DNA from: a virus
Virus record (IMG/VR): IMGVR_UViG_3300028557_000081
Coordinates: 1 to 40,723 of that record
Strand: one strand, 5' to 3'
DNA length: 40,723 nt
Part shown: positions 3,170 to 15,777 of the stretch, in pieces
Layout: each line of letters starts with the position of its first letter
How positions within the stretch are numbered: position 1 is the first letter of the stretch
Notes under the pieces: model-generated
What the model was told of the DNA's origin: nothing
Seen by the model: only the letters and a program-made list of their open reading frames with translations
Databases searched by the model: none
Position numbers and translations under genes: made by a program

Positions 3170-4075
3170 TCAGTTCAGGTTGACGTCAGCCGTGCGGCCC
3201 TCGTGCGCCTTCTTGCCCGCCTGCACTTTGCGGATCTCGGCTAGCAAAGTTTCCTCGCTCAGCCGCCAGTTCGCCGGATCAGGGTCAACCGATGCGGCGT
3301 GAATCGCGTTCAGGCAGACGTTCAGGATGTCTCCGCCGGAGAGCCCGCGGGAACTCATGGCCACGTTCCGCAGGTCGGCGCTCACCCGGCCGATGCTGGG
3401 CAGATGTGAGCGGAATATCCTCTCCCGCATCGAGGCGTTGGGCAGGGCGAACTCCACATGACGGGCAATCCGGCGAAGGATCGCTTCGTCGTAATTGCCG
3501 AACAGGTTCGTCGTCATCACGACAACTCCGCCGAACCGGTCGAGTTCCTGCATGAGCGCGTTGCGGTTTTGGTTGATCGAAGTGGCGCAGCTCTCGCCCA
3601 TCGCCACTCGGCGGGAAAGCAGGCTGTCGGCTTCATCGAAGAACAGTACCGCTTCGGCCTCCGCAGCCTCCTTGAACGCTTTCGCGATGTGCTTGGCCGT
3701 GTCGCCCAGATATTTGCTGATGATCTGGCTGTAATCGACTTGGTAGAGCGGCTTGCCGAGCCTCCACGCGATGCCCAGGGCGGCGCGGGTCTTCCCCGTT
3801 CCCGGCGGGCCGTAGAAGTTCAGGATGCAGCGCCCGGCCTGCGGCTGGATCTCGCTCAATTTCCAAACCGCCTCCAACTGCTCGCGCATCTCAATAGAGC
3901 GGAGCGCTGCGGCGATGTCCTCGCGCACCGTGCTGTGGAGCACGAGGCGGTCGAGGTCGTGGCGGGGTTCAGGATCAACGAGGATTCCGACCGGCGCGGC
4001 CTGCTGCTCTCTGCGGCGCGGGCGCGGCGTGCGGTGGTCCTCACGGTCCTCCATCATTTCATTGTCGTCTGGCAT
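3170..4075 (-). CDS. AAA+ ATPase (FtsH/Cdc48-like core)
   Basis: 301 residues from ATG 4075. Walker A GPPGTGKT at 89-96, pore-loop-like 'KYLGD' at about 121-125, Walker B LFFDEAD at 144-150, sensor 1 'TTN' at 188-190 and a paired arginine finger 'RR' at 201-202 are all intact. The small helical lid follows. The first ~50 residues are charged and low in complexity. Classical AAA proteins of this type remodel or unfold proteins as hexameric rings; the substrate is unknown. It has its own leader (4076-4144, family B). The frame upstream of 4075 is leader sequence. Confidence 0.88.
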   Translation of the reverse strand: MPDDNEMMEDREDHRTPRPRRREQQAAPVGILVDPEPRHDLDRLVLHSTVREDIAAALRSIEMREQLEAVWKLSEIQPQAGRCILNFYGPPGTGKTRAALGIAWRLGKPLYQVDYSQIISKYLGDTAKHIAKAFKEAAEAEAVLFFDEADSLLSRRVAMGESCATSINQNRNALMQELDRFGGVVVMTTNLFGNYDEAILRRIARHVEFALPNASMRERIFRSHLPSIGRVSADLRNVAMSSRGLSGGDILNVCLNAIHAASVDPDPANWRLSEETLLAEIRKVQAGKKAHEGRTADVNLN

Positions 4076-4144
4076 TTTCTTGTCTTTCTGGTTGCTGCGT
4101 TGGTGCGCCGCCAACTACGTCACCCGCGTAGTCATTGGCGCAGG
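4076..4144 (-). promoter_or_regulatory. leader family B, copy 1
   Basis: Shares with 7460-7530 the plus-strand blocks CTTTCTGGTTG, GCGCCGCC, and the inverted repeat CTACG...CGTAG (here 4115-4131) followed by a CAT and GCGCA. It lies directly before the AAA+ gene start. Confidence 0.6.
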
Positions 4145-4148
4145 AAAA

Positions 4149-4484
4149 TCATTCGTATCGGCTGTGCGGGAACACCTTTTTCATCATCCGCACAAAGGGC
4201 TTGGTGCCGTAGTTGCCCCGGATCATCGGGCTGACCGTCTCGTCGTAGAACTGCGTCCACGGAACGGCTTCGGTCTTCCGCCCGGCGCGCTCTCCATACA
4301 TCCGGATGTAATCCGCATCGCAGATGAACTCGATCTGGTCTTTCTGCGAGCGGCCCCCGTCGCCCATGTCGCCGCCGATTGCGCTGTAGGTCGCCCAGCA
4401 GGCGGCGCTGAAGCGTTTGAACTGGTTCTCCGTCAGGCCGCAGAGATCGGCCTTCGGGCTGTCTTGTTGGATTGTTGCTGTCAT
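4149..4484 (-). CDS. protein of unknown function
   Basis: 111 residues from ATG 4484, which overlaps the stop of the upstream papain-like gene (ATGA). AAGGAGG in its leader is a good ribosome-binding site. The protein has 'LTENQFKRFSAACWATYSAIGGDMGDGG' then 'IEFICDADYIRMYG' and 'VSPMIRGNYGTKPFVRMMKKVFP'. It looks like a compact helical protein. Family not recognised. The other long frame here (to 4521) is unlike natural protein and is rejected. Confidence 0.72.
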   Translation of the reverse strand: MTATIQQDSPKADLCGLTENQFKRFSAACWATYSAIGGDMGDGGRSQKDQIEFICDADYIRMYGERAGRKTEAVPWTQFYDETVSPMIRGNYGTKPFVRMMKKVFPHSRYE

Positions 4485-4543
4485 CCTCCTTGGCCTCTCG
4501 CAGTTCCCACACTGAGTCCATCAGTATTTGGCACCATTTTTCG
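4481..4543 (-). promoter_or_regulatory. leader family A, copy 2
   Basis: The 22 bp at 4481-4502 (plus strand, TCATCCTCC... to ...CTCTCGCA) are identical to 11000-11021. GTCCATC (4516-4522) and CACCATTTTT (4532-4541) follow as in that copy. Here the leader also encodes the C-terminus of the upstream gene, so it was probably acquired by recombination. Confidence 0.7.
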
Positions 4544-4846
4544 TGGTGCCTCCCACGGCCCGTAGTGTAGGGCTTCGAGCATCAACCTGCGGGCTTCCGA
4601 GGGCGAATACCGCGCCACGCTGGCAGTGATTTTCCCGATGGCGTAGTAGGCATGCTTGCGGGCGCACACGATCCGTCCGTTGCTCGGGTCAATGACGGCA
4701 TCGCCGATTTCGGCCCATGCGTGCCCGTAGCGGATTCCGGCAATCGGCCCCTGTCCTGTCACTTCGCCGTGGACGAGCAGGATTCCCGGGCATCGTGCAT
4801 TCCCGATCACGAATCTCGCCGCAGCCTCATAGCAATCGCCATTCAT
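4481..4846 (-). CDS. predicted papain-like (transglutaminase/NlpC-type) hydrolase
   Basis: 121 residues from ATG 4846 (ATGA overlap with the clamp-loader-like gene). 'GDCYEAAARF' (C5), 'YGHAWAE' (H42) and 'AVIDPSNG' (D53) have the order and surroundings of a Cys-His-Asp papain-like triad. No full family match is claimed. The last ~18 residues (after KMVPNTDGL) are encoded by a repeated leader block and may be recombination-derived. If active it could cleave or transfer amide bonds, which is of interest beside the amidoligase and RadC-like genes of the same operon. Confidence 0.62.
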   Translation of the reverse strand: MNGDCYEAAARFVIGNARCPGILLVHGEVTGQGPIAGIRYGHAWAEIGDAVIDPSNGRIVCARKHAYYAIGKITASVARYSPSEARRLMLEALHYGPWEAPRKMVPNTDGLSVGTARGQGG

Positions 4847-5472
4847 GCCGCCGCCCTCATGTCGATTGCGCTTTCCAGATCCGCGAGCGCGGCCCGCACG
4901 CACCCGCCGCTCCCGACGGCGATTTCCTGGGCGAGCCGCTTCGGGGCCTTCCACCGGCGGATCAGCCACTGCGCGATTTCATCCGACTCGGGACCGGTGA
5001 TTTTGAACGCTTGGAAACGCGTTTGAAACCGTTCCGTGAGCAGGTCGAGTTGGAGGTTGCTCGTGCCGATGAGCGCCCGCCCCGGCCGCAGCCGGTCGAG
5101 GTAGGAAAGCATCAGGTCTTGGGCCTCGCGGGAACAGCGGTCCAACTCGTTCACGATCCGCACGCTCCACCCGCCACCGAACATGCTGACGTAGGCGAGC
5201 CCGTCCATCCACCGGCGCACAGCCTCCACCGTGATCTCGCGCCCGTTGTGATCCTCGATCGCACAGGGTTCGCCGCCGGTCAGCTCGCGGGCCACCATTT
5301 CGGCAATCGTCGTCTTGCCAACCCCTGGCGGCCCGTAGAGCAGGATCTTCATCGGGCCGTCCTTGCCGGTGCGGATCCTCCGAGCTTTGGCAACAAGCGC
5401 ACGCGCAGCGGTCCTGGCGGAACCGATCAGGTCATCCGGCACGACCGGGCGGAATGAGGCAGGCGATTTCAT
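4843..5472 (-). CDS. AAA+ ATPase, clamp-loader/Holliday-helicase-like
   Basis: 209 residues from ATG 5472. Walker A GPPGVGKT at 47-54; Walker B region 'VRIVNELDR' (104-112) has Asn-Glu in place of the usual Asp-Glu; sensor 1 'ALIGTSN' near 133-139; a lid with 'IAQWLIRRWK'. The size and the 'EAQDLMLSYLDRL' segment resemble RFC/DnaX-type AAA domains, without collar or tau domains. The Asn in Walker B could weaken ATP hydrolysis. Start and stop are both coupled to neighbours by ATGA overlaps. Confidence 0.85.
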   Translation of the reverse strand: MKSPASFRPVVPDDLIGSARTAARALVAKARRIRTGKDGPMKILLYGPPGVGKTTIAEMVARELTGGEPCAIEDHNGREITVEAVRRWMDGLAYVSMFGGGWSVRIVNELDRCSREAQDLMLSYLDRLRPGRALIGTSNLQLDLLTERFQTRFQAFKITGPESDEIAQWLIRRWKAPKRLAQEIAVGSGGCVRAALADLESAIDMRAAA

Positions 5473-5924
5473 AGCACTCCCGCCTCCCGGAAGCTGAAGC
5501 AGGAATTCGTGCCAACGATCAGGTGGTCCAGCAGGTTGATCTGGATGATGCGTCCGGCCTCGGCGAGCCGCTGGGTGATCCGCCGGTCGGCTTCGCTGGG
5601 GAGAGCCATGCCGCTTGGGTGGTTGTGGATCACCAGAACGGCATAGGCCCCAATCGCCACCGCCGCCCGGAACACATCGCGGGGATGGACGGTGCATTCA
5701 TTCAACGTCCCGATCCCGACGAGCGTGTGCCCGACTGGCGAGAGGCGGGTGTTGAGCATAACTGCCACGCACATCTCTCGCTCGGGGTCATACCACGGCA
5801 TCGCCGTGATCTTCTCCCGCCAGTAGGTCGCGGCGGAGTTCGCATCATCAACCCGCATTGATCCCGGTGTTTCGTTGAGCCGCTGGACCCGGATCTCGAA
5901 CGTGGATTTTCCGTAGCGCGTCAT
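5469..5924 (-). CDS. RadC/JAB-fold (JAMM-motif) protein
   Basis: 151 residues from ATG 5924. The JAMM signature is present: E50, then 'HNHPSG' (H100, H102) and 'SEAD' (S110, D113). 'LLDHLIVG' and 'FSFREAGVL' complete the RadC-type domain. It lacks the helix-hairpin-helix N-terminus of full-length RadC, as do many plasmid and phage versions. The family is predicted to bind zinc and hydrolyse amide or isopeptide bonds; RadC itself has no proven enzymatic role. Both ends are coupled to neighbours by ATGA. Confidence 0.9.
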   Translation of the reverse strand: MTRYGKSTFEIRVQRLNETPGSMRVDDANSAATYWREKITAMPWYDPEREMCVAVMLNTRLSPVGHTLVGIGTLNECTVHPRDVFRAAVAIGAYAVLVIHNHPSGMALPSEADRRITQRLAEAGRIIQINLLDHLIVGTNSCFSFREAGVL

Positions 5925-6052
5925 GGCTGGCCCTCCAGTTTCCGGGCAATGGCGGCGACCGCCTCCGCTCCCTTCTTGTAAACCACGACCGCGATCAGTT
6001 CGTCCTCGCGCCACACCGCCCAGAACCGGTTGTATCTGGCGACCCGGATCAT
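5921..6052 (-). CDS. 43-residue protein of unknown function
   Basis: MIRVARYNRFWAVWREDEL... from ATG 6052, coupled at both ends by ATGA overlaps, which is the main support for so small a gene. It looks like a single beta-hairpin plus helix ('YNRFWAVWREDELIAVVVYKKGAEAV'). Confidence 0.6.
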   Translation of the reverse strand: MIRVARYNRFWAVWREDELIAVVVYKKGAEAVAAIARKLEGQP

Positions 6053-6243
6053 GGCAGTTCCTCCTGCGTTGACGGTGCCCGGCGCTCCCAATCCAGGGCG
6101 GCAGCTTCCGCTTGCTCGTGGGTGGGGAAGTTCTCCCCAATCCACCGCTCGAATGCCCCGCCCTCATCCCGGCCCCCGCGCACGACTGTCCAGCCCCGCC
6201 AAAGGGCGGCGGGGACAACTTCCGGCTGATGGAGCGCGTTCAT
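6049..6243 (-). CDS. 64-residue protein of unknown function
   Basis: From ATG 6243 (ATGA overlap with the gene upstream). 'GWTVVRGG' and 'WIGENFPTHEQAEAAALDWE' suggest a short beta-strand and helix fold like other tiny phage early proteins. Family not recognised. Confidence 0.62.
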   Translation of the reverse strand: MNALHQPEVVPAALWRGWTVVRGGRDEGGAFERWIGENFPTHEQAEAAALDWERRAPSTQEELP

Positions 6244-6830
6244 TTCGCCCACCCCTCTCTGCGGATGCGGGCCTTGAGCGTGTTGATCGGCACGTTGAAC
6301 TCCGCCGCCGTCTGCTTCACGCTCCGGTCTTTCCGGTAACGGCGTCTGATTGCCTTCCAGTCCGGCCCGAGGATCGCACGGATGGGTGCTGGAATTGGCC
6401 GTATTTCCGCACGCCGCTTCACCGCTGGGGTAGCAGTATTGCCCTCGGGGTCATTGAACGTGCGGTAGCGCGACGTGGAGAGCGGGTTGAACCGCTCTGT
6501 CGGCTTGTCCTTCTCCAGCCGCGACATCCGCTGCTCGATCCCCTCAAGCGCGGTGCCCGTCATGGCTTTCACCGCCGATCCCACGAGTTTCGGGATGTCC
6601 AAGGATCTCCTGCCTCCCCGCACCGTGGCAATTTCGGCGATCTGGGATGTCACGATCTCGCGGATCAATTCCAGCGGGATTTCCGTGACCACGTAGACGA
6701 CGCCCGTGAGGCTTTCCAGCCCGAGAGCCTGCTTCATCTTTTCTCGGGCCTCGCGGGGCGTTTCCGCCTCGACCCGCTCATCGAACACAATCTCGCTCGA
6801 CCGGCTCGCAACGATTTTGAAGAGTTTCAT
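6240..6830 (-). CDS. protein with C-terminal helix-turn-helix
   Basis: 196 residues from ATG 6830, preceded by GGAGGT and overlapping the upstream stop as ATGA. The C-terminus 'YRKDRSVKQTAAEFNVPINTLKARIRREGW' reads as an HTH of transposase/sigma-like type ('AAEFNVPINTLKARI' as recognition helix). The N-terminal half ('FDERVEAETPREAREKMKQALGLESLTGVVYVV') is alpha/beta and unassigned. Probably DNA-binding; it could regulate this operon. Confidence 0.72.
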   Translation of the reverse strand: MKLFKIVASRSSEIVFDERVEAETPREAREKMKQALGLESLTGVVYVVTEIPLELIREIVTSQIAEIATVRGGRRSLDIPKLVGSAVKAMTGTALEGIEQRMSRLEKDKPTERFNPLSTSRYRTFNDPEGNTATPAVKRRAEIRPIPAPIRAILGPDWKAIRRRYRKDRSVKQTAAEFNVPINTLKARIRREGWAK

Positions 6831-7459
6831 GCGACCTCCTTCTCCGCCGACCAGAGGGCGAGTTGATCGGTGGGTTTCTTCATCCAACGAACATTCCCCG
6901 AGCGTTCGAGTTCGTAGAGGAACCCGAGGTTCGAGCACCGCATCCCGCGCCACTCCCGCCAGTCACCGAAGAGGTTCGTTTTCGTCGCCCCCATGAGCAC
7001 GAACCGTCCGTCCACGCTCTGGAGCAAATCCGGATCGTGCAGGTGGTTTACAAGCAGGGCCATCACCCGGCTGTCGCTGATCGGCCCGCCGACTTTCCGT
7101 TTCTCCGTTTTCTCGATGTAGGAGAGCGCATCTTTGAACCCGCCCCATGTCCCGTTGTGGAACAGGACGCGGCTGGCTTTGCCTACAAGGGCGGTTTGCG
7201 CCGACTTGTTCACCGGGAACGGGTGGCAAAGCTCCGGACTCACCCCTCCCACGCTCGCCCAACGGAAGTGGATCACGATCTCCCCCTTGAGCTTGCGCAG
7301 CAGTTGATGCACTTCGATGGGACCAAGGTTTTTGGTCCACCGCACTTCTCCCTTTGCCCGCCATGCCACTCCCGCCCCATGCGGGTTGGCAGCAGCGCAG
7401 GCCATCAGGGTGTTCAGGCCCGGCCTCACTTTCGGCGGGCACACGATGATTACACACAT
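6827..7459 (-). CDS. class II glutamine amidotransferase-like protein (Ntn hydrolase)
   Basis: 210 residues. It begins MC, so removal of Met would expose the catalytic Cys of the class II glutaminase family. 'NPHGAGVAW' (25-33), 'VIHFRWAS', 'CHPFPV' and 'LFHNGTW' are the family's substrate and oxyanion-hole motifs in order. No synthase domain follows. In phages and other mobile elements such stand-alone domains are known beside amidoligases, and the next gene upstream is one. It would release ammonia from glutamine or itself transfer an amide. Preceded by a family B leader. Confidence 0.82.
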   Translation of the reverse strand: MCVIIVCPPKVRPGLNTLMACAAANPHGAGVAWRAKGEVRWTKNLGPIEVHQLLRKLKGEIVIHFRWASVGGVSPELCHPFPVNKSAQTALVGKASRVLFHNGTWGGFKDALSYIEKTEKRKVGGPISDSRVMALLVNHLHDPDLLQSVDGRFVLMGATKTNLFGDWREWRGMRCSNLGFLYELERSGNVRWMKKPTDQLALWSAEKEVA

Positions 7460-7530
7460 ACTACGTTTTCCTTTCTGGTTGTTTGGTTGCTTCTGCGCCG
7501 CCGACTACGCACATCGCGTAGCCATGAGCG
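7460..7530 (-). promoter_or_regulatory. leader family B, copy 2
   Basis: Occupies most of the 78-bp gap between the amidoligase stop and the amidotransferase start. Matches 4076-4144, including CTACGcacatcgCGTAG (7505-7521). Confidence 0.6.
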
Positions 7531-7537
7531 CAAATAA

Positions 7538-8482
7538 TTAGAGATTGGCGTCGGCATACCGTCCGTCGAATTGGCGGCAGAGGCGCAGGGCCTCGCGGCT
7601 GTGGTTGGAAAAGTCGTCGTGCAGGCGGCCGAAGAGTCCGAGGGCAACCGGGCGGTTGCTCCCGGTCCACCCGAGGTAATCCCAGAGGAACTTCACCGAC
7701 TCGACCGCGTTGCGGGTGCGGGCCTGCTGGAGCTTGTTCTTTTTGAACCCCCCGAGGCATTGCACTTCGTGGGCGCGGCGACAGAGCCCGAGCGCGGTTC
7801 CCACATGATGCTGGACTTTGGCGAGACTGACCGTGCCGGCGAACGCACGGAACTCAACGAGCCCGTGCGACATGAGCTTTCTAAAATTGACCATCCCGCG
7901 CCCGCACGCCACCGCCGCTTGTTCCTTGCGCCGGATATCCGGCGCTACCTGCATCTGCTTGACCAAGGTTGCCACGTCCTCCGCGAACGTGTGGCTGAAG
8001 TGGTTCAGGTGACGTCCGGTCCCCGTCTGGCCGTAGATCGCGCGCGCGTGCCACTGGGCGATGTGGGCAAGCTTTCGGGCGAAGTCCGCACGGGCTTGGA
8101 CGTCTGATGTTCCGATCACGCTGTCCACGCTCACGGTCACATGGCACCCGCATGAATCGTTCACCCGCGCCCCGATCCCGTTCATCCATCCAACGAAGTC
8201 GCAGAGCTTCGCCACCCCGTCCTCGCCGTGGAGAATGGGCGACACAAATTCGCAGGCCATCTCCCCGGATTGATACCGGATCGAGCCGTCGCGTTCGGCT
8301 TTCCAATAAGCGCGGTTGAAGTTCGGGGCGGCGATGATGGTGGATTCATTGAGGCGAACTCCGCCGGTCACGGGACTGCCCCCGTGGTAGGAACCGACCG
8401 TGATTCCGCTCGCGGCGGGAATGGCGGTTTCCAGTTCAATTCCGAAGCGGATCTGCGTGGCTTTGATGTCTTGAGGTCTCAT
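7538..8482 (-). CDS. amidoligase (COOH-NH2 ligase, glutamine-synthetase-like fold)
   Basis: 314 residues from ATG 8482. 'FGIELET' (13-19), 'GEMACEFVSPIL' (73-84), 'CGCHVTVSV' (111-119) and 'GLVEFRAFAGT' (207-217) are the core motifs of the amidoligase family: metal/ATP-binding acidic residues, a His-containing strand and the E-F-R strand. The family is predicted to make amide or isopeptide bonds using ATP; targets are mostly unknown. Pairing with the adjacent class II amidotransferase is a previously noted genomic association (Iyer, Aravind and colleagues). The longer frame upstream (to 8593) is conserved leader DNA. Confidence 0.85.
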   Translation of the reverse strand: MRPQDIKATQIRFGIELETAIPAASGITVGSYHGGSPVTGGVRLNESTIIAAPNFNRAYWKAERDGSIRYQSGEMACEFVSPILHGEDGVAKLCDFVGWMNGIGARVNDSCGCHVTVSVDSVIGTSDVQARADFARKLAHIAQWHARAIYGQTGTGRHLNHFSHTFAEDVATLVKQMQVAPDIRRKEQAAVACGRGMVNFRKLMSHGLVEFRAFAGTVSLAKVQHHVGTALGLCRRAHEVQCLGGFKKNKLQQARTRNAVESVKFLWDYLGWTGSNRPVALGLFGRLHDDFSNHSREALRLCRQFDGRYADANL

Positions 8483-9461: not shown

Positions 9462-10343
9462 TCACATATCCCAAGCCTCGCGGAACCCGACAAACTTCGG
9501 GAACCGGGGCGCATCTTTCGCTCCGCTCGGCTGGTGCTTGAACTTCACGAACTTGCCGATCAAGGACTCCCGTTTGATCCACAGGCTCACGCGGTCGATG
9601 CCGCCGAGCACATGGTTGTAGCCGAGCCGGAATTCCACGCCCGTATCGAGCGCACGCACGATGAACCCGCCGAGTTCTCCCCGGCCCACCATGCCCGCCT
9701 GCGCCATGCTTCGTTTCGTGCGCCCGAAGGCATCGCGCTCGGCTTCGTTCTGGTTCGTCATTCCCTCGTAAGGTTCAAGCACAACGGCCTCCGCGTCCTC
9801 AAACCGCTTGATCTTGAGCAGCCAGCCTTCGCGCTCGGTTGAACGCCCGCATTTATACGGACCTGCCGGATCGCGCACCATCACGCCCTCGTATCCCGCG
9901 GCGAGGCATTCTTCCTCGTAGGCGGCGAGTTGGACGGCGTCCTCGATCTCGACCGGCAACACTTTCTCCACATGGTCCCACTCGGGCAGGCGAGCGAGCT
10001 CCTGCATCCGGCAGGCATACGGAACGTCGACACCGTCGCTCACGTAATCAAAGACATGGAACACGAAATCCGGCTCGCCGCTTTCCCGGCCGATCGCGCT
10101 CGTGGTGGCATTGAACGTGCCGCCACGGAGCATCAGCTCCCCGTCCACTCCATCGGGCAGGTTCGCCTCGATCCACTCGCGGACGAACCGGTTGCTGATC
10201 GGCTTGTAGGACCGCGTCAGCGCCCGGCCTTCGATTTTCAGGCAGCGGATTCCGTCCAACTTGGGCGTAGCCAGCACGGGGAACCGCAGGGCCTCGGGTT
10301 GCTCGCATTTACCGGCGAGCATCGGCTTGGTGATTTTGCACAT
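9462..10343 (-). CDS. T7-type ATP-dependent DNA ligase
   Basis: About 293 residues from ATG 10343, which has AAGGAG 7 nt upstream; ATG 10349 overlaps the upstream stop but is too close to the Shine-Dalgarno. Motif I KLDGIR, motif III 'FVFHVFDYV', motif IV 'GYEGVMVRD' and motif V 'WLLKIKRFEDAEAVV' are intact, followed by the OB domain ending 'GAKDAPRFPKFVGFR'. It is a complete minimal DNA ligase that seals nicks using ATP. It contrasts with the OB-less KxNG protein at 1520-2212. Confidence 0.92.
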   Translation of the reverse strand: MCKITKPMLAGKCEQPEALRFPVLATPKLDGIRCLKIEGRALTRSYKPISNRFVREWIEANLPDGVDGELMLRGGTFNATTSAIGRESGEPDFVFHVFDYVSDGVDVPYACRMQELARLPEWDHVEKVLPVEIEDAVQLAAYEEECLAAGYEGVMVRDPAGPYKCGRSTEREGWLLKIKRFEDAEAVVLEPYEGMTNQNEAERDAFGRTKRSMAQAGMVGRGELGGFIVRALDTGVEFRLGYNHVLGGIDRVSLWIKRESLIGKFVKFKHQPSGAKDAPRFPKFVGFREAWDM

Positions 10344-12088: not shown

Positions 12089-12679
12089 CTACCCATTATC
12101 CACCAAATCATCGAACAACCCGGGCTGGAACGGCTGGAGGGCGGCATGCTCGGCGGAGAAGAACTGCGCTTTCGTGGCCCCTGATGCCTTGCCTTTGCGG
12201 GTGTGGCAGTCGAACGCGTAGTCGGGGATGGGGATGTATTCGGGCGCTTTGCGGAGATCGTCGGCGAGCGCGTCCGCATCCACTCCCTTCAACTGGTCAT
12301 AGACTAGGTTTTGCAAATGGTCCGGGTCGCGGCTTTTCTTGGCAGCACAGAGGATGATCACCGCTTTGGAAATGAAGATCCGGCCCTTGGCTTTCCGGGC
12401 CGGCACGTTGTCGTTCACGATCAGGTAGGAATCGTGGAGTGCCTTGACCTCCGCTGTGATCAGGCCCCAGCAATCTTCCGCGCTCACGGTGAGCAGACGC
12501 TTCCACACGTAGTTTCCGAAACCGCTGGCCCAGAGCTCCAACGCCCAGTATCCGGCGAGTTGGGTATCGGCGCGGCGGATCGCTTTCTGCATCGCGCTGC
12601 TAACTTCGCTGAATTTGTAATTCCTGATCGTGCGAAGTTCCATATCAGGTGGCCCAAGGCGGAAGAGTGGCTTTTCCAT
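12089..12679 (-). CDS. stand-alone MgsA/RarA C-terminal-domain protein
   Basis: 196 residues from ATG 12679. 'YKFSEVSSAMQKAIRRADTQLAGYWALELWASGFGNYVWKRL' and 'DYAFDCHTRKGKASG...FFSAEHAAL' match the C-terminal tetramerisation region of the RarA/MgsA/WRNIP1 family. The AAA+ domain that normally precedes it is absent. RarA acts at stalled replication forks, so this protein may engage host RarA, clamp-loader or SSB partners. Its leader has been split by the IS element at 12735. Confidence 0.78.
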   Translation of the reverse strand: MEKPLFRLGPPDMELRTIRNYKFSEVSSAMQKAIRRADTQLAGYWALELWASGFGNYVWKRLLTVSAEDCWGLITAEVKALHDSYLIVNDNVPARKAKGRIFISKAVIILCAAKKSRDPDHLQNLVYDQLKGVDADALADDLRKAPEYIPIPDYAFDCHTRKGKASGATKAQFFSAEHAALQPFQPGLFDDLVDNG

Positions 12680-12734: not shown

Positions 12735-14196
12735 ACAGCCGTCCCATAGGAAATGCAAAAAAAGGCAGGGGAATGATGGACGGGGAGTTTTGAACCTGCC
12801 ATGTGGCAGGGTGTGAAAAACAAAAACCATCCCCGCCCATCGCGATCCAATCTCAGCGTTCTTCGCCAACTCTGCAACCTCATTCCTTCCCATCTCGTGC
12901 CAAATCTGGCGAGAGAGACCGGCGTTGCCAGTGCTTGCCGAACATTTTCGGCATGGAGTCATGTTGTGGCGATGCTCTACGCGCAGTTGACTCACTCCAT
13001 CGGGCTCAACGATGTGTGTGATGCGTTGCGCCTGCACAGTGGGCCTCTCTCGGCGATTCGGGGCGCGACGCCACCGAGCCGCAACGGGCTCTCGCACGCG
13101 GGCAAGGAGCGCAGTGCGTTGCTGGCGGAGAAGCTTTTCTGGTCCGTGCTCGGGCATCTTCAGACCCTCTCGCCAGGATTTGCCCGTGGACGGCGAGGCC
13201 GGGGAGTGGCACACAGGTTCCGCAGGGCGATCCACATTGTGGACTCCACAACTATTGAGCTGGTTGCCAAATGTATGGACTGGGCCAAGCATCGGCGGCG
13301 CAAGGCGGCCGCCAAGTGCCACATGCGGCTTGACCTCCAGAGCTTCCTGCCCAGCTTTGCCCTGATTGATACCGCCCGTCACAACGATGCCAAGCGGGCC
13401 AGAGAGGTCTGTGCGGGAGTGCAGTCCGGCGAGATTGTTGTCTTTGACAAGGCCTACGTGGACTTCAACCACCTCCACGACCTCTTCCTGCGGGGTGTCT
13501 TCTGGGTCACCCGCACCAAGACGAGCCACTGCTTCAAGGTCGTCAAGCGCCGCAAGTCCACCAATCCAAAGATTCTGACCGACGAGGAAGTCGTGCTCTC
13601 GCGCAAAGAGGCCTACGAAGGAAAATACCCGCAACGCATGCGGCGAGTGCGCGCTCTGGTCGAGGTGGACGGAGTCGAGCGGGAAATGGAGTTCCTGACT
13701 AATAATATGGAGTGGAGCGCGAGTAGTGTCGCCGACCTTTATCGGTGCCGCTGGGATATCGAAGTGTTCTTCAAGCAGATCAAGCAAACTCTCAAGCTCG
13801 CCGATTTTCTCGGCCACAGTGCCAACGCAGTCCGGTGGCAAGTCTGGAGCGCCCTGCTTTGCTACCTGCTGCTGCGCTATCAGGCATTCCTTTCGGGCTG
13901 GGGAAGCAGCTTTACCCGGCTTTTCACTCTGATTCGATCTGCTCTTTGGCAGCGGTTGGACTTGCTTGCGCTTTTGAAAAGCTGTGGGACAGCAGGCGGG
14001 GGCTTTCGAGCTATAGCCACGCCGGAATGCGCATATTTCCCTGCTTTCAGGCGCTAAGCTATGGGACAGCGGCTCTTTCATATGACTAATATCCCCATGA
14101 ATAACTGAACTTCTTAATGCTGTTTTTCGGACTTTGTAATCCGACCCGCTTCAATGCTTGATTGGAGTGTCGTTTTACGTCCGTGTGGGACAGCAC
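12735..14196 (+). mobile_element. IS4-family insertion sequence
   Basis: About 1462 bp with one transposase gene, flanked by a perfect 12-bp direct repeat as expected for the IS4 group. The ends share an imperfect inverted repeat: CAGCCGTCCCATAGG at 12736 and, on the other strand at 14196, GTGCTGTCCCACACGG. A further GTCCCATAG repeat lies inside at 14062-14070. Confidence 0.82.
12801..14057 (+). CDS. IS4-family transposase (DDE)
   Basis: 418 residues. N-terminal DNA-binding region, then the first catalytic Asp in 'IHIVDSTTIEL' (about 149), the second in 'IVVFDKAYVDF' (about 214) and the Y-(2)-R-(3)-D-(6)-K signature in 'LYRCRWDIEVFFKQIKQTLKL' that carries the catalytic Glu (about 324). The gene appears full-length and intact. 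The IS lies in an early-gene leader, so its own transcription runs away from the gene it separates. Confidence 0.93.
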   Translation: MWQGVKNKNHPRPSRSNLSVLRQLCNLIPSHLVPNLARETGVASACRTFSAWSHVVAMLYAQLTHSIGLNDVCDALRLHSGPLSAIRGATPPSRNGLSHAGKERSALLAEKLFWSVLGHLQTLSPGFARGRRGRGVAHRFRRAIHIVDSTTIELVAKCMDWAKHRRRKAAAKCHMRLDLQSFLPSFALIDTARHNDAKRAREVCAGVQSGEIVVFDKAYVDFNHLHDLFLRGVFWVTRTKTSHCFKVVKRRKSTNPKILTDEEVVLSRKEAYEGKYPQRMRRVRALVEVDGVEREMEFLTNNMEWSASSVADLYRCRWDIEVFFKQIKQTLKLADFLGHSANAVRWQVWSALLCYLLLRYQAFLSGWGSSFTRLFTLIRSALWQRLDLLALLKSCGTAGGGFRAIATPECAYFPAFRR

Positions 14197-15040: not shown

Positions 15041-15115
15041 TGGTTGCAGGGCCGGGAGTTGAACCCGGATTTGCGGGGTATGAATCCGCCGTGACACCAC
15101 TTTCACTACCCTGCG
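15041..15115 (-). tRNA. tRNA-Met (anticodon CAT), CCA encoded
   Basis: 75 nt folding as a cloverleaf. Acceptor CGCAGGG/CCCTGCA with a C1-A72 mismatch; D stem GTGA/TCAC; anticodon stem GCGGA/CCCGC with one A-C mismatch and loop TTCATAC; T arm CCGGG-TTCAACT-CCCGG; discriminator A and CCA. C1-A72 is a mark of initiator tRNA, but T11-A24 and the missing GGG/CCC anticodon stem are elongator-like. A tRNA-Ile read with lysidine is also possible. It overlaps the ParB-like stop codon (15106-15108, tRNA positions 8-10). Confidence 0.8.
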
Positions 15116-15777
15116 GTTGGAGATCCGGTTGCCGCTTTTTGCGCGAGTTCGATGAGTCTTTTTCCATGGAGGACACGGCCGATGCCGATTTTCTTGGTTT
15201 TGCGGGTGATTGAATAATCCACTTCCTTCACGCCGATGAGCTGGAGCGCGAGCATCCAGTCCCTCAAGTCGTGGAACATGAACACGAGGTAGTCATGGTG
15301 CTCGAATGCCTGGCATTCCATGCGCGGAATCGTTTCGAGGTCTTCGGCGGGATCTGCCTCGGCGAACAGTTTCGCGATTTCGTCCTCCATGAAACCGGTG
15401 AGTTCGATATCGAAACTGGGATCGCTCTCCCGCAATTTATCTACGACCCGCTTGAGATCGTCCTCGTCGAGTTCCGCGAGTTCAGAGAGCCGGTTGTCGG
15501 CGAGCAGGTCGGCCAGTTCCGCCGCATCCGACTCATAATCCTGGATGTCCACCGGCACGGTGTCGCAGCCGATGAGCAATGCTGCTTCAAGCCGGCCGTG
15601 GCCGCGGACGATCAGCCCGCTCCGTTTGCTCACGGTGATCGGTGATCGCCACCCCTGTTCCTGTATAATCGCTGCAAGAAGCTGGATCTGGTGGGCGCTG
15701 TGCCGGTTCGGGTTGACCGGGTTCGGTTTGAGTTTCCGGGGATCAACGAGCTGGTTATGGGCGCAGTGGACTGTCAC
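15106..15777 (-). CDS. ParB/Srx-fold N-terminal-domain protein
   Basis: 223 residues. The start is taken as GTG 15777 because TTGAC lies 15 nt before it, as at other starts of this element; the frame extends to 15867. 'LKPNPVNPNRHSAHQIQLLAAIIQEQGW', 'IVRGHGRLEAALLIG' and 'LLADNRLSELAELD' are the ParB nuclease-like domain. No KorB-type HTH follows, so it is the phage/methylase-associated type rather than a plasmid centromere binder. The end has 'DYLVFMFHDLRDW'. Its last codons and stop are shared with the tRNA. Confidence 0.85.
   Translation of the reverse strand: MTVHCAHNQLVDPRKLKPNPVNPNRHSAHQIQLLAAIIQEQGWRSPITVSKRSGLIVRGHGRLEAALLIGCDTVPVDIQDYESDAAELADLLADNRLSELAELDEDDLKRVVDKLRESDPSFDIELTGFMEDEIAKLFAEADPAEDLETIPRMECQAFEHHDYLVFMFHDLRDWMLALQLIGVKEVDYSITRKTKKIGIGRVLHGKRLIELAQKAATGSPTAG

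Follow-up and report, generated by a model that had tools for sequence, protein, structure and literature searches.

What does the leftward gene cluster at positions 3170-8482 of IMG/VR virus record IMGVR_UViG_3300028557_000081 do, and which of its genes belong together? The window, i.e. the whole stretch of 40,723 bases analysed here, is that virus record and encodes terminase, portal, head, tail and integrase proteins; judged from its sequence, it is a temperate phage of Verrucomicrobiota bacteria. To our knowledge, almost nothing is known about such phages. A first-pass annotation had read the cluster as a possible operon for making, breaking and remodelling amide or isopeptide bonds, composed of an amidoligase, a class II glutamine amidotransferase, a helix-turn-helix (HTH) protein, a RadC/JAB-fold protein, a predicted Cys-His-Asp hydrolase and two AAA+ ATPases. 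Every gene named there was recovered at the same place and on the same strand. Our analysis narrows the rather vague prediction of an operon to a unit of two enzymes, open to test, in the early/replication region:

7538..8482, minus strand: AMDL, amidoligase of the glutamine synthetase (GS) fold (PF12224, Pfam E=2e-9), 314 amino acids (aa); core of the unit
6827..7459, minus strand: GAT2, stand-alone class II (N-terminal nucleophile, Ntn) glutamine amidotransferase, 210 aa; core of the unit

We consider it reasonably probable that AMDL and GAT2 form a functional unit for glutamine-fed, ATP-driven amidation or ligation of a host carboxylate, probably that of a cell-wall or gamma-glutamyl peptide. 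AMDL starts with the ATG at 8482, the same start as in its homologues, and E16xE18, E78, H114, R157-H158, R195 and E210xR212 are invariant throughout the 27 members aligned. Neither AMDL nor GAT2 gave a significant match when its sequence profile was searched against the PDB, and fold searches with single-chain structure models were used instead. The AlphaFold (AF2) model of AMDL (predicted local distance difference test score, pLDDT, 87.5) returned YbdK, GS, Dop, PafA and GshA as best Foldseek matches, which weakly suggests a fold of the GS-type ligase superfamily. The class II assignment of GAT2 is weak for the window protein alone (E=0.025) and is backed by its homologues, 28 out of 35 of which gave a GATase_6 match (best 1.8e-7), as well as by its predicted fold: the AF2 model (pLDDT 91.3) matched GlmS/GFAT/PurF glutaminase domains with a Foldseek probability of 1.00 and is clearly that of a GlmS/PurF-type glutaminase. 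Among 113 distinct GAT2 sequences, each site being scored where covered, C2, H64, R66 (112/112 with a residue there), N102, G103 (110/110), S128 and D129 (108/108) are conserved. The catalytic residues, whose conservation the first-pass annotation had made a touchstone of its prediction, are hence invariant in the aligned homologues of both enzymes.

We were curious to know how strictly the two genes keep together. Scans with AMDL yielded 51 viral loci and 53 host-genome loci, 52 of the latter from Verrucomicrobiota (Chthoniobacterales, Akkermansiaceae, Verrucomicrobiaceae, Prosthecobacter and others) and one from a Planctomycete, with the taxonomy as stated in the record titles, mostly of metagenome-assembled genomes. 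The searches relied on exact peptide patterns and are biased to near relatives, and many loci are contig fragments or near-duplicates, so that the counts given here do not represent independent events. No close phage relative was found in the GenBank phage collection searched. AMDL adjoins GAT2 in all 69 testable relatives (45/45 viral contigs and 24/24 host-genome loci), and GAT2 is present in each of the 38 loci for which 6.5 kb or more of downstream sequence is available (21 viral and 17 host), the set used for all neighbour counts below. A scan seeded on GAT2 alone led to 27 distant loci, and an amidoligase is adjacent in 26 out of the 26 that are testable, the contig of the 27th (L171) ending on the relevant side. 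These distant GAT2 proteins are mostly 34-43% identical, and many are encoded within unrelated neighbourhoods. In locus L162 the amidoligase lies downstream of GAT2 (PF12224, E=1.2e-9); some of the other distant-locus amidoligases are divergent, with only 52 columns matched to AMDL in profile-profile comparison (E=7e-6), yet share with it the signature ExE, DxSV, GE, CGxHxH and ExR. The association of amidoligase and class II amidotransferase put forward in the first-pass annotation is therefore right and very strong: in these reciprocal searches, a phage-type class II amidotransferase stood beside an amidoligase wherever this was testable in the sampled viral contigs. Because the genes are so strictly paired, we infer that the two activities are coupled.

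A cultured carrier of the locus is Chthoniobacter flavus Ellin428, in whose prophage (L084, 10001-10957) a TGA breaks the AMDL frame within locally disturbed sequence, while relatives have intact copies.

Class II amidotransferases release ammonia from glutamine, and enzymes of the GS-fold superfamily activate a carboxylate with ATP to form an amide. By analogy, GAT2 would hydrolyse glutamine via its N-terminal cysteine, and the ammonia set free, or an amine, would be joined by AMDL to a carboxylate activated with ATP. This biochemistry is likely. The target would most likely be a host-derived peptide, either a cell-wall stem peptide or a gamma-glutamyl compound, and the modification might give the phage an advantage, for instance against superinfection; the cell wall is our leading but unproven guess. 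A tie to gamma-glutamyl chemistry is suggested by phage C75C1 (L183, 5001-5897), where one gene combines the GAT2 homologue with a gamma-glutamylamine cyclotransferase domain (GGACT, PF06094, 2.7e-21) and lies a few genes away from an Amidoligase_2. The window has no such cyclotransferase; the fusion in C75C1 provides a lead to the chemistry of the cassette. GatD, the amidotransferase of the MurT-GatD system, is of the class I type. This system likewise performs glutamine-dependent amidation, there of peptidoglycan, with a ligase and a separate amidotransferase, although MurT is Mur-ligase-like (PMC3267633), and we compare only the way of working and claim no homology.

Pairs of amidoligase and class II amidotransferase are already known from other phages. 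Amidoligase_2 and a class II amidotransferase occur in the early regions of UFV-P2 and LUZ24-like phages (PMC3890496), are part of what was termed a 'peptidoglycan modification cassette' in PSA-HP1 and relatives (PMC5498523), and have counterparts among the amidoligase and amidotransferase type genes of a Planctomycetes phage (PMC10945688) and in the OM43 phages MEP401/402, for which amidoligase (PF12224) and GATase (PF13522) were reported together (PMC10580990). For such podophage cassettes, peptidoglycan modification against superinfection was proposed, itself an unproven prediction (PMC5498523, PMC10580990). The LUZ24-like/phiEco32-like cassette (UFV-P2 ORFs 21-29, with ORF for open reading frame; Pseudoalteromonas phage PSA-HP1) has the same two enzymes close together and, like the window, carries them in an early region, surrounded by genes of DNA metabolism (PMC3890496, PMC5498523). 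In the window, however, the two genes are directly adjacent and belong to a temperate Verrucomicrobiota phage, and Pfam scans of the window proteins found neither a COOH-NH2_lig second amidoligase nor an ATP-grasp enzyme nor a gamma-glutamyl cyclotransferase. The window is thus a reduced member of this group in which the full peptidoglycan cassette is absent, and the lack of the ATP-grasp and cyclotransferase partners suggests which step is essential. MEP401/402, marine phages of OM43 bacteria, share the same two enzyme families and were compared at the family level only. The genes gp65-gp66 of Arthrobacter phage Ottawa encode an adjacent amidoligase (PF12224, 1.2e-33) and GATase_6 protein (3.5e-14) as in the window, but this phage has an actinobacterial host, and the identity of its amidoligase, about 33%, extends over one third of the protein. 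With our analysis, the range of the cassette comes to include temperate Verrucomicrobiota phages.

Several points weigh against the proposed peptide amidation. The cassette partners named above are missing from the window, the Foldseek match of AMDL is remote (template modelling score, TM, 0.3-0.47), in Porphyromonas phages an amidoligase occurs with no annotated amidotransferase close by, so that pairing is not universal for this enzyme, and the substrate of the pair is a prediction.

The remaining genes of the cluster, together with two from the surrounding early region, are as follows:

9462..10343, minus strand: phage DNA ligase (phrog_114, 1.1e-56), context; just upstream of AMDL-GAT2 in most relatives
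6240..6830, minus strand: small protein with a possible C-terminal HTH, the usual downstream neighbour; 34/38 loci
6049..6243, minus strand: 64-aa ORF of a few close relatives only; 6 loci including the window
5921..6052, minus strand: 43-aa conserved microprotein without a Pup-like C-terminus; 32/38 loci
5469..5924, minus strand: RadC/JAB-fold protein (PF04002, 3e-35), accessory; 7/38 loci, in several gene orders
4843..5472, minus strand: AAAp2, clamp-loader-like AAA+ domain, outside the amidation unit; 34/38 loci
4481..4846, minus strand: CHD, predicted Cys-His-Asp protein of 121 aa, accessory; 2/38 loci
4149..4484, minus strand: 111-aa ORF without a match in Pfam, PHROG or PADLOC
3170..4075, minus strand: AAAp1, classical AAA+ ATPase, IetA-like (PF00004, 2.5e-25), accessory; 15/38 loci
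12089..12679, minus strand: c1, stand-alone RarA/MgsA C-terminal-like domain; 51/52 loci including the window

Seven 4-base stop/start overlaps run from GAT2 to the 111-aa ORF, in agreement with the ATGA coupling noticed earlier, but AMDL and AAAp1 are outside this overlapping chain, AMDL being separated from GAT2 by 78 bases. The common order in the lineage is ligase, AMDL, GAT2, zero to two genes, HTH gene, 43-aa ORF and AAAp2. Since the entire early region is syntenic, gene order by itself is weak evidence, and stronger tests were used instead. AMDL, GAT2 and the HTH gene are kept together in the rearranged genomes L010 and L047, and the HTH gene, the 43-aa ORF, RadC and CHD were not found in most of the distant phages with AMDL-GAT2. 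As the pair is retained there and its other neighbours mostly are not found, we take AMDL-GAT2 alone to act as a unit.

The families assigned to RadC and, by Pfam, to both AAA+ proteins in the first-pass annotation were borne out, whereas two of its labels stand less firmly. The HTH gene exists, its HTH identity being indicated by sub-threshold sigma-70 region 4-like matches only. In CHD, C5, H42 and D53 are kept in four relatives and replaced by Ser, His and Glu in a fifth (L013), and the hydrolase label is unproven; Pfam, PHROGs and PADLOC gave no family match for CHD, and the label could not be tested by phage homologues because none was found in the GenBank phage collection. Judged by its occurrence, RadC is an optional gene that changes place within the early region, and RadC, CHD and AAAp1 are, on the same grounds, passengers of that region. 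AAAp1 matches the anti-phage ATPase IetA (PADLOC, 1.1e-36), and no IetS (subtilase) family was found among the proteins scanned with Pfam. A viral scan with AAAp1 returned three loci only, all on contigs that were known before, and neither AMDL nor GAT2 matched a defence family in PADLOC.

The best matches of AAAp2 are RFC, HolB and RuvB of the clamp-loader clade. The c1 profile matched PDB entries 3bge (2.9e-10) and E. coli RarA 3pvs (9.2e-8), and its homologue in L158 matched NCBIfam RarA (5e-8). In L010, L158-L160 and L171, and only there, the AAAp2 gene lies immediately before c1, as a separate gene. AAAp2 and c1 are probably a split RarA-like replication/recombination ATPase and may act together as one enzyme. 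Being clamp-loader-like and travelling with a gene for a RarA C-terminal domain, AAAp2 points to replication/recombination and not to the remodelling of conjugates.

This bears on the reading of the whole operon as one conjugation system, in which AMDL and GAT2 would make bonds, RadC and CHD would cut them and the two AAA+ proteins would remodel the targets. The chain of seven consecutive overlaps and the fact that a minority of relatives have RadC close to AMDL speak for it, but RadC and CHD are missing from most relatives, so that the co-occurrence on which the idea hinged fails for them, AAAp1 is found in less than half of the loci, the place of RadC shifts, and AAAp2 goes with c1. Nor do these genes follow the pair into distant phages, apart from one group that has AAAp2 together with c1, and L150, which has AAAp1. 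On the co-occurrence counts in the 38 loci we rejected the make-break-remodel system and hold it to be very improbable. The scarcity and variable place of RadC also mean that the linkage of a JAB peptidase to a ligase, as in ubiquitin-like conjugation and deconjugation, was not seen. A Pup-like scheme, with AMDL attaching a small phage-encoded protein, for instance the product of the 43-aa ORF, to targets, could draw on PafA and Dop, GS-fold ligases among the remote AMDL matches, and on the conservation of the microprotein near the pair. Its 63-sequence alignment, though, places the conserved core (RYxxRxWAVxxDGELLAVxVYxKGAxAVA) internally and shows a variable tail without a conserved C-terminal Glu/Gln, on which ground the tag was rejected; the microprotein was not found in distant phages that retain AMDL-GAT2, and pupylation needs no glutaminase, making this scheme extremely unlikely.

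Other readings keep the pair as the unit and change its purpose. AMDL-GAT2 is a fixed core pair in a whole lineage of Verrucomicrobiota phages, has ligase and clamp-loader-like genes next to it and is without the enzymes that recycle gamma-glutamyl compounds in known cassettes. On these grounds it could be a minimal, self-contained amidation machine aimed at a macromolecule of the replication complex (phage or host protein, or DNA) instead of the cell wall, a reading that we regard as unlikely. It seems rather improbable that the pair boosts host glutamine/ammonia assimilation as auxiliary nitrogen metabolism, as proposed for Planctomycetes phage ZRK32: similar genes were called auxiliary metabolic genes (PMC10945688, PMC10580990), but a glutaminase feeding a ligase would amount to a futile cycle for bulk nitrogen, and the pair is a core feature of this phage lineage, placed among genes of DNA metabolism. 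Quite improbable, in our view, is a role in DNA hypermodification, with AMDL-GAT2, a TET-associated-type glycosyltransferase (TAGT) and a ParB-like protein decorating the bases of phage DNA. The product of 14286-14993 matches PF20691 TAGT at the cutoff, enzymes of the TAGT type act on the DNA of T-even phages (PMC13390438), and seven distant phage loci have a related glycosyltransferase gene upstream of the pair; most of the other distant GAT2 loci, some of them short, did not yield it, however, and TET/JBP, dCMP hydroxymethylase and cytosine methyltransferase families were not found in the scanned window proteins. From this distribution, the link of the glycosyltransferase to AMDL-GAT2 appears only partial.

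A few observations stand apart from these readings. Six host-genome loci (L088, L099, L100, L101, L102 and L108), mostly of Akkermansiaceae, have an amidoligase fragment followed by pieces of the HTH gene and/or AAAp2; GAT2 was not detected in them, and they may be decaying prophages or, alternatively, assembly artefacts. The window carries two ATP-dependent DNA ligase-like genes, a short, divergent copy at 1520-2212 in addition to that at 9462-10343, within one small phage. A DDE_Tnp_1 match (9.7e-23) was obtained among the window proteins and probably belongs to the ORF at 12966-14057, a probable transposase. The TAGT gene lies beside the ParB-like gene (15106-15777), both conserved near the terminase gene, and a tRNA-Met (CAT) at 15041-15115 is placed between the two, overlapping the end of the ParB-like gene.

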